A DNA stretch of 64,000 nucleotides from Bernardetia sp. ABR2-2B (GTDB lineage: Bacteria; Bacteroidota; Bacteroidia; Cytophagales; Bernardetiaceae): the NCBI RefSeq assembly GCF_037126435.1, contig NZ_CP147020.1:3576001-3640000 (forward strand), written 5' to 3'. Shown in pieces: positions 59,614 through 60,346 of this stretch; within the stretch, counting starts at the first letter, position 1, and every line of letters starts with the position of its first letter. The translations under genes and the position numbers were made by a program. The notes under the pieces are model-generated. The model saw nothing but the letters and a program-made list of their open reading frames with translations, searched no databases and was not told the DNA's origin.

Positions 59614-59649
59614 AAAAAAGCAAGTTCAGAAATGGACTTGCTTTTTTTT
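59614..59649 (+). terminator. Aconitase gene terminator
   Basis: AAAAAAGCAAGT and ACTTGCTTTTTT form a strong stem with a loop of about 10 bases, then a T-run. Confidence 0.9.
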
Positions 59650-59656
59650 GAACTAC

Positions 59657-59700
59657 TTAGCGAGTGATTTATATGATTCGTATGACTAAAGGCAAGATAA
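59657..59700 (-). repeat. Copy A of the GxxExxY-flanking repeat, inverted and diverged
   Basis: The reverse complement ends in ATAAATCACTCGCTAA and carries ATCTTGC...CATACGAATCATAT, related to copies B-D but with a shorter middle. Opposite to copy B, so the two could pair. Confidence 0.75.
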
Positions 59701-59750
59701 ATACAATGAAATACTTATTTTTGTAAATTCTTGTAAACAATAGGTATTCG

Positions 59751-59803
59751 CCTTTATCCTGTAATTCATCATATAAATCATACAAAATCACTCGCTAATC
59801 AAG
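59751..59803 (+). repeat. Copy B of the GxxExxY-flanking repeat
   Basis: 53 bases starting CCTTTATCCTGT and ending ATCACTCGCTAATCAAG, 8 bases before the GxxExxY start codon. Differs from copy C by a single one-base insertion. Confidence 0.95.
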
Positions 59804-59811
59804 CCTAATTT

Positions 59812-60198
59812 ATGCAAAACGAAAACTATCGACACAGCGAATTAACAGACAAAATTATAGGTGCATTTTATACTGTTTATAATAAACTAGGACATGGTTT
59901 TTTAGAAAATGTATATGAAAATGCTTTATCTATCGAACTCAAAAAAATAGGTTTAGATATACAAACTCAAGTTTCTATCAAAGTATATTATGATGAATAT
60001 GAAGTAGGAAGTTATTTTGCTGATATACTTGTAAATGATACAGTTATTTTAGAGTTGAAAGCAGTAGAACACGTTTTACCTGCTCACGAAGCACAGTTAC
60101 AAAATTATTTACAAGCTGTTCGACTAGATGTTGGTTTGCTATTAAATTTTGGAGTGCAACCAGTAGTAAAACGAAGAACAAGACGAGTAAAGGCATAA
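59812..60198 (+). CDS. GxxExxY protein (PD-(D/E)XK-like)
   Basis: A 128-residue protein from ATG 59812. The name-giving motif is G29-F-L-E32-N-V-Y35. A nuclease-like set follows: D71 (F-A-D-I-L-V), E81-L-K83 (V-I-L-E-L-K) and H92-E-A-Q-L (A-H-E-A-Q-L-Q-N-Y-L), the order seen in PD-(D/E)XK folds. The activity of this family is not established as far as I know. The C-terminus is basic (K-R-R-T-R-R-V-K). It sits between two near-identical 53/52-bp direct repeats, with two more copies outside, as a cassette inserted between aconitase and the symporter. Confidence 0.9.
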   Translation: MQNENYRHSELTDKIIGAFYTVYNKLGHGFLENVYENALSIELKKIGLDIQTQVSIKVYYDEYEVGSYFADILVNDTVILELKAVEHVLPAHEAQLQNYLQAVRLDVGLLLNFGVQPVVKRRTRRVKA

Positions 60199-60206
60199 AA
60201 AACTTA

Positions 60207-60258
60207 CCTTTATCCTGTATTCATCATATAAATCATACAAAATCACTCGCTAATCAAG
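60207..60258 (+). repeat. Copy C of the GxxExxY-flanking repeat
   Basis: 52 bases starting CCTTTATCCTGT and ending ATCACTCGCTAATCAAG, 8 bases after the GxxExxY stop codon. Same orientation as copy B, 456 bases from it. Confidence 0.95.
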
Positions 60259-60298
60259 TTCTAGTATTTTGTATTAGTAATTCAAAAAGCAATTTGTA

Positions 60299-60346
60299 TT
60301 TATCTTGTCATTCATCCTATAAATCATATAAAATCACTCGCTAATC
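60299..60346 (+). repeat. Copy D of the GxxExxY-flanking repeat
   Basis: About 48 bases, TATCTTGTCATTC at the start and ATCACTCGCTAATC at the end; a more diverged direct copy, ending 17 bases before the symporter start. Confidence 0.9.

Follow-up and report, generated by a model that had tools for sequence, protein, structure and literature searches.

Between two genes that we take to encode aconitase and a symporter-like protein, Bernardetia sp. ABR2-2B carries a small GxxExxY gene framed by four copies of a short repeat, which raises the question of how such a gene and such repeats are related. The window, i.e., the whole 64,000-nucleotide stretch that was analysed, covers C1:3576001-3640000 of the strain's 5.38-Mb genome (G000). 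Within it, the order between the two neighbours is A(-), B(+), the GxxExxY gene, C(+), and D(+). Copy A (59657..59706, minus strand) is inverted, shows GAT steps ~9-10 nt apart, and forms the left arm of a hairpin unit whose right arm is the direct copy B (59751..59803, plus strand); the loop between them (59707..59750, 44 nt) is alignable in part to the loop of a gene-less pair in the related genome G002. The gap between B and the start codon of the gene (59812..60198, plus strand, 128 aa) is 8 nt, the direct copy C (60207..60258, plus strand) starts 8 nt past the stop codon, and a further direct copy, D, lies at 60299..60346 (plus strand). An earlier note on this DNA had described B and C as sitting 8 nt outside the start and stop codons with one indel between them, D as a third direct copy, and A as an inverted, diverged one, and this description holds: the 53 alignment columns of B and C show 98% identity and one indel, D matches B at 92% over 48 nt, and A (inverted) is 84% identical to D over 51 nt and shares perfect blocks of 14 and 13 nt with B and C. 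The 14-mer ATCACTCGCTAATC, with at most one mismatch, occurred three times in the window vs. 0.01 expected. Folded as single-stranded DNA, the A-B stretch gave a z of -6.2, equalled by none of 200 shuffles; folded singly, A, B, C, and D gave +1.2, +0.5, +0.2, and +0.5, respectively. The 14-mer count, the A-B fold, and the genomic copy number reported below together place the repeat beyond chance. No inverted repeat of 12 nt or more was found within any single copy, and no consistent GTAG foot was seen on the copies by eye. A and B form an inverted pair, a type of unit that also occurs on its own in other places. As the earlier note had also observed, the element contains no transposase, and a profile search of its protein returned only PF13366 at E ≤ 0.001. 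Directly upstream of the element and just after the aconitase gene, a stem-loop followed by a T run (59614-59647) is probably the aconitase terminator, outside the element.

The window protein matched TIGR04256 with 137.4 bits (cut-off 35) and PF13366 (PDDEXK_3) with 140.6 bits (cut-off 22), in both cases over nearly the full profile, and is a full-length member of this family. In 38 aligned sequences, the window's included, E32, Y35, D71, E81, K83, L110, N112, and F113 were invariant; D71 with E81-x-K83 presumably represents the usual PD-(D/E)XK catalytic set. Such a residue set and a basic tail had been pointed out before, and both are present. An AlphaFold2 model (mean pLDDT 92) was of the alpha/beta type, and a fold search of the PDB with this model gave as its best row SSO0001 (E 5.5e-5), which we take to be Cas4-type, with lambda-type exonucleases and Hjc Holliday-junction resolvases at 1.5e-3 to 1e-2 and a tRNA-splicing endonuclease also among the best rows. 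Since the rmsd of the best rows was large (13 A), the match is by the core only; as predicted from the model, these rows indicate a nuclease core and no particular substrate. Judged by its family, modelled fold, and catalytic residues, the GxxExxY protein is a PD-(D/E)XK nuclease. It had no TIGR02436 match and, considering also its alpha/beta model, is not a four-helix-bundle protein. By simple counting, dN was well below dS, at 0.038 vs. 0.24 for the gene pair L002-L068 and 0.174 vs. 0.64 for L003-L077. Of 118 genomes sampled from the phylum, 59 contained GxxExxY genes. The strain's own genome has four, with flanking repeats that by eye are different for each; one of them (L001, C1:4363951-4364280) contains a single in-frame TAG. 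Three matches elsewhere (G064:C9:91044, G091:C1:72354, and G076:C22:338277) lie within 883-aa open frames, making fusion proteins possible, and GxxExxY genes occur as neighbouring pairs at G128:C4:68683 and 69423 and at G068:C1:1593381 and 1593858.

Whether GxxExxY genes are generally framed by repeats was assessed on 241 loci, collected from relatives, from named genomes, and from a sample of the phylum. These yielded 231 intact gene matches in 228 loci; 225 of the matches were unique, and the 218 whose flanks measured 100 nt or more on either side and contained no N were counted. The phylum sample contributed 29 new loci and, from among the matches listed, 80 more without in-frame stops, taken in listed order with some passed over; 80 loci were the matches listed in a search directed at clade I, and 74 of their gene entries are among the 218. 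Each gene received an arm score from local inverted alignment of the 200 nt upstream with the 200 nt downstream, and arms scoring at least 30 were called strong. Strong arms flanked 118 of the 218 GxxExxY genes vs. 6 of 346 control ORFs from the same loci, with median scores of 31.5 and 18 (Mann-Whitney p 1.8e-45); three of the six strong-armed controls (L108, L143, and L189) were themselves TIGR02436 four-helix-bundle genes. The remaining 100 GxxExxY genes fell below the threshold. Among the lowest-ranked 34 of the 80 named loci, inspection by eye gave the impression of arms in most, and an earlier count on the named loci alone gave 43/78 strong vs. 8/349 controls. Clades were defined as cuts of the leaf order of a midpoint-rooted FastTree tree (I-IV with 149, 29, 27, and 10 genes; three left out). 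Strong arms were found in 83/149 genes of clade I, 18/27 of clade III, 6/10 of clade IV, and 2/3 of the others; in clade II (9/29) the signal is weak. Outside the clade I-directed search the fraction was 81/144 and within it 37/74. Loci from metagenome-assembled genomes labelled Pyrinomonadaceae (L179), Deltaproteobacteria (L166), Nitrospinota (L195), and Ignavibacteriaceae (L175), all among the named loci, scored 64, 24, 52, and 55 in that earlier count.

The two arms of a gene also matched each other specifically. Compared with all 218 right arms, a gene's own right arm was the best match for 59 genes, where about one is expected, and ranked in the top 5% for 134/218; the corresponding numbers for controls were 5/150 and 13/150. 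Within clades, the own arm was best for 32/149 (I), 10/29 (II), 14/27 (III), and 8/10 (IV), and the mean own-arm match was 33.2, whereas 2000 random re-pairings within clades averaged 20.1 and never went above 21.4. It follows that both sides change together, whether by joint descent, by conversion, or by selection that keeps them symmetrical. The pairing of repeats with GxxExxY genes is real and general.

The arms consist of short units strung one after another, which run in opposite directions left and right of the gene. By eye and by 6-mer counts, the units in clade I are CACAGAG, CGCAAAG, CACGAAG, and CACTAAG-like, and those in clade III are GGATT, CACGGATT, and ACAGATT-like, the window's being GTGATTTATATGATTCGTATGA; GTCTGAA was seen by eye in several clade II arms. 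Unit starts in clade I were mostly 8 to 11 nt apart, with 36, 78, 145, and 47 cases at 8, 9, 10, and 11 nt (mode 10, from a tally of the arms alone), and GAT steps in clades III and IV lay 9, 10, and 11 nt apart in 49, 17, and 12 cases (mode 9), with flat controls. Autocorrelation over 436 GxxExxY arms was 0.030 at lag 10, where 400 bootstraps of 692 control arms did not exceed -0.003, and 0.017 vs. 0.003 at lag 9; lag 12 was raised too (0.019), and clades II and III peaked at lag 9. A spacing of 9-10 nt is approximately one turn of B-DNA, and the phasing of the arms therefore suggests, as far as can be read from their letters, that the protein may recognise DNA from one face.

Flanking sequence also predicted the clade of the gene. 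A nearest-neighbour rule on 100 + 100 nt of flank reached a balanced accuracy of 0.69, vs. a mean of 0.243 and a maximum of 0.354 in 300 label shuffles, and named the clade correctly for 132/149 (I), 17/29 (II), 16/27 (III), and 7/10 (IV) genes. Other ORFs of the same loci were rejected as a control for this coupling, because 74 of the 78 usable loci belong to clade I and both ORFs and GxxExxY flanks there were within the shuffles; distance from the gene was used in their place. For the 201 loci with enough flank, accuracy was 0.635 beside the gene (shuffle maximum 0.425) and 0.353, 0.207, 0.224, and 0.381 at 100, 200, 300, and 500 nt out, where shuffle maxima were 0.379, 0.431, 0.382, and 0.358; the value at 500 nt slightly exceeds its maximum. 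Protein identity correlated with arm similarity significantly in clade I (rho 0.231, permutation maximum 0.087), marginally in clade II (0.199 vs. 0.196), and not significantly in the window's own clade III (0.182 vs. 0.301). A phased CRCARAG triple, CRCARAGNNNCRCARAGNNNCRCARAG with at most two mismatches, occurred in 20 of the 59 phylum genomes with GxxExxY and in 3 of the 59 without (Fisher p 1.1e-4), a contrast weaker than its p since the genomes lacking GxxExxY cluster in few families and since the pattern was written after seeing the arms and counts arms at genes. There were 74 vs. 4 such sites, and 6 vs. 3 for the reversed control pattern. Some flank a GxxExxY gene (all 8 in G067); most others, among the matches listed, do not.

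The window's repeat is dispersed through its genome. A 72-base query found at least 33 copies at E ≤ 0.001 and at least 49 at E ≤ 10, both lower bounds since 40 of 75 candidates were scored. B, C, and D account for three of the 33, A (E 0.004) falls short of the limit, and the other 30 lie at least 9 kb from any of the four GxxExxY matches in the genome. Detailed inspection covered the 30 best-scoring copies, which fall at 26 sites. None was covered by an ATG-initiated ORF of 100 aa or more, the longest being 76 aa. An inverted partner (score of at least 30, within 200 nt) lay upstream of 12 of them, forming 10 distinct pairs, and downstream of none of the 30. All 12 scored higher than any of the 50 shuffles made for the copy in question; with every copy taken together, the highest shuffle score was 36 and the median of the maxima 25. 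Loops of these pairs measured 17 to 110 nt, mostly about 50-65. Folded as DNA, the pair at L049 had a z of -6.0 and the gene-less G002 pair -4.1; L042, a pair with diverged arms, was no better than its shuffles (z about -0.6). Within the inverted pairs at L044 and L064, upstream of the repeat copy, there is a GGCTTCGCCGAGC-type stretch that resembles a RAYT-type repeat of the same genome (compare L263). The pattern ATAAATCATNNAAAATC with two mismatches was discarded as too loose, with 195 matches vs. 88 for its reversed control.

In the genus, the repeat had 10, 17, and 37 copies in G001, G002, and G005, in which no clade III GxxExxY gene was seen (clade assigned by eye; G005 is 92% complete in 460 contigs). 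G003 had neither a GxxExxY match nor a copy of the window repeat at E ≤ 0.001. The earlier note had named repeats scattered at random and unlinked to GxxExxY genes as one finding that would speak against a connection. This is what we found in part, since 30/33 copies are away from these genes and three species keep the repeat with no clade III gene seen by eye; on the other side, arms recur at GxxExxY genes across the family and track the clade.

Orthologous sites were compared across the genus. At the window's site, compared in seven genomes of the genus, G000 has A-B-gene-C-D and G006 has A-B-gene-C, with no fourth copy seen by eye in this orthologous gene-bearing allele. G002, G004, and G005 have a gene-less inverted pair in the same place, followed in G005 by the symporter start and then other sequence; in G001 and G003 no element was seen by eye in the 700 nt shown, and the neighbours are others. 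Arm-to-arm scores were 60 (G000), 66 (G006), 68 (G005), and 34 (G002), and the G004 pair has decayed (22). G002 and G006 are the closest pair of genomes by the neighbour gene of a second site (95%), and only G006 has the gene at the window's site. Gene-bearing and gene-less alleles thus alternate between closely related species. The earlier idea of one cassette dropped between aconitase and symporter accordingly needs changing: the element does lie there, but with three relatives holding a gene-less pair in that place, the gene either came into a pair or was lost from one.

At the second site (L002), six of the seven genomes carry GxxExxY elements in spacers of 337-584 bp, and G003 is empty with a 42-bp spacer, in which no target duplication was evident by eye, the spacers being too diverged to align confidently; no target-site duplication was seen for the element. 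Between G002 and G006 the next gene is 95% identical and the element 71%, and between G006 and G000 the values are 91% and 83%. The arms are of a AACACAGAG... type in G002 and G004 and ACCACAGAGGTTGAAGAG or close to it in G000, G005, and G001. Judging from these identities and arm types, gene and arms seem to turn over together. Own arms outscored arms of the other type in most, not all, comparisons, an exception being the left arm of G006, which scored 46 with the right arm of G002 and 44 with its own. The genes at this site are broken in three of the six (G001, G004, and G006). Of the five genomes with a long query match (G000, G001, G002, G003, and G005), G000 alone has the L004 site filled; no element was seen by eye at the junction in the other four, and the G005 contig ends nearby. 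This junction was rejected as a clean empty site, the far side not being orthologous.

These observations suggest that the GxxExxY protein acts on its flanking repeats and may spread them. The earlier note had likened this relation to that of RAYT proteins and REP elements, and the likeness is strengthened by recurrent, clade-tracking arms and by dispersed gene-less copies. Like the REP/REPIN/RAYT systems (REPtrons) described in PMC3116915 and PMC6006769, the present one has a nuclease gene flanked by repeats that are dispersed between genes, with a repeat of its own for each gene type and with inverted doublets around a loop. Unlike REPtrons, the protein is of the PD-(D/E)XK and not the HUH/Y1 type, single copies do not fold, and the arms are strings of phased direct units. 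It is therefore not a true REPtron, though by analogy it is likely to function like one. With MITEs and insertion sequences it shares short, gene-less inverted-repeat copies beside gene-bearing ones; it differs from them in that the element encodes no transposase and no duplication of the target was seen. The explanation that we lean towards is a nuclease with cognate repeats, i.e., a REP/RAYT-like (REPtron-like) system built on an unrelated PD-(D/E)XK enzyme. Beyond the pairing itself, which was observed directly, we infer binding, cutting, and mobilisation of the arms by the protein. It would bind its own arms and cut or nick at or near them, perhaps on an inverted pair extruded as a hairpin or cruciform, and repair of the cut could propagate gene-less pairs, carry a copy of the gene from one pair to another, and make repeats such as B and C alike. 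Cutting of the own arms would be the most likely step of this mechanism.

Three other explanations account for some of the same data. The gene-less pairs could be the primary elements, moved by something else, with the GxxExxY nuclease a homing-type parasite that cuts them and is then copied into them by repair. The window's site, gene-less in G002, G004, and G005 and with a gene beside the pair in G000 and G006, would fit this, as would the different gene and arms of the close relatives G002 and G006 at the second site and the 30/33 copies away from GxxExxY genes; however, clade-specific arm types at many genes would need a separate set of pairs for each clade, and we regard homing as unlikely. 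Other machinery, such as a Y1 transposase or recombination, could also have spread the repeats and carried along a small gene that does not act on them. The genome does contain eight Y1/RAYT-type matches, and the repeat persists in species with no clade III gene seen. Nevertheless, none of the eight Y1 loci has the window repeat within 1.5 kb or in its near flanks, the best match within that distance being 17 bp, and the window repeat was rejected as the REP of any of the genome's Y1 genes. Five of the eight (L259, L262, L263, L265, and L266) have strong inverted flanks of their own, of differing types (scores 48-98), and several of these look hairpin-like by eye; PMC6006769 likewise reports atypical secondary structures flanking TnpA-REP subclass 2.6 of Bacteroidetes. 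Both kinds of system thus exist side by side in one genome. The arm type, moreover, tracks the gene clade with a signal that falls within 100 nt, and, apart from a pair of overlapping loci and two brief matches (23 and 33 residues), no neighbour protein recurred at the 26 copy sites, so that a recurrent neighbour was rejected as the owner of the repeat. We consider a mere passenger quite improbable.

Regulation is the third explanation: the arms would be operators or RNA structures that control the gene through autoregulation, attenuation, or RNase processing as in 23S rRNA intervening sequences, and not substrates for movement. B is separated from the start codon by 8 nt, the A-B stretch folds well, and S23 intervening sequences are described in PMC4990558 as hairpins cut by RNase III. 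Against this, arms occur downstream of the gene too, at the dispersed gene-less pairs there is no gene of this kind to control, and phasing of about one turn would fit DNA binding better, so that we think control of the gene alone very improbable. Under the favoured reading, a nuclease acting on cognate repeats, the own arms are a specific candidate substrate, which makes the uncharacterised GxxExxY family assayable; if it is true, an enzyme fold unrelated to that of RAYTs has also given rise to cognate-repeat systems, and an owner is at hand for many dispersed repeats of Bacteroidota that have so far lacked an explanation. A literature search that covered few subscription journals found no published description of the pairing, and repeats are not mentioned in the single passage of each of two papers that names GxxExxY; among the matches listed for the arm motifs, each contained just one of four strings, with no evident bearing.

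A parallel exists in the S23-like four-helix proteins. Like 23S rRNA intervening sequences, the window's element encloses a small gene in an inverted-repeat hairpin built of short tandem units, and in Coxiella, tandem heptamers upstream of the S23 ORF are described in PMC4990558. It is unlike S23 intervening sequences in its unrelated protein, in units of 9-10 nt vs. 7 nt at four-helix genes, and in sitting between protein genes. Of 70 four-helix loci taken from the matches listed (L200-L229 and L365-L404), 69 were found again and 68 counted. The inverted-arm score was at least 30 in 44/68, and the own arm was the best of 68 for 30 genes. These arms showed a sharp 7-nt period (autocorrelation 0.114 at lag 7 and 0.075 at lag 14) with no signal at lag 10 (-0.015). 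Both families might belong to a wide, non-HUH class of REPtron-like selfish systems in which small nucleic-acid enzymes or binders would lie inside, and act on, arms of short phased units. Each protein family would determine its own period, 9-10 nt with GxxExxY nucleases and 7 nt with S23-like four-helix proteins, and the long-known rRNA intervening sequences would be one visible case of the S23-like type; we put this forward tentatively and lean slightly against it. The parallel would give a mechanism to test for the nature of 23S intervening sequences. TIGR02436 four-helix-bundle genes were found in 28 of 39 genomes, including that of the window, where they lie at C1:84979, 566412, 861441, 2229098, and 2922478.
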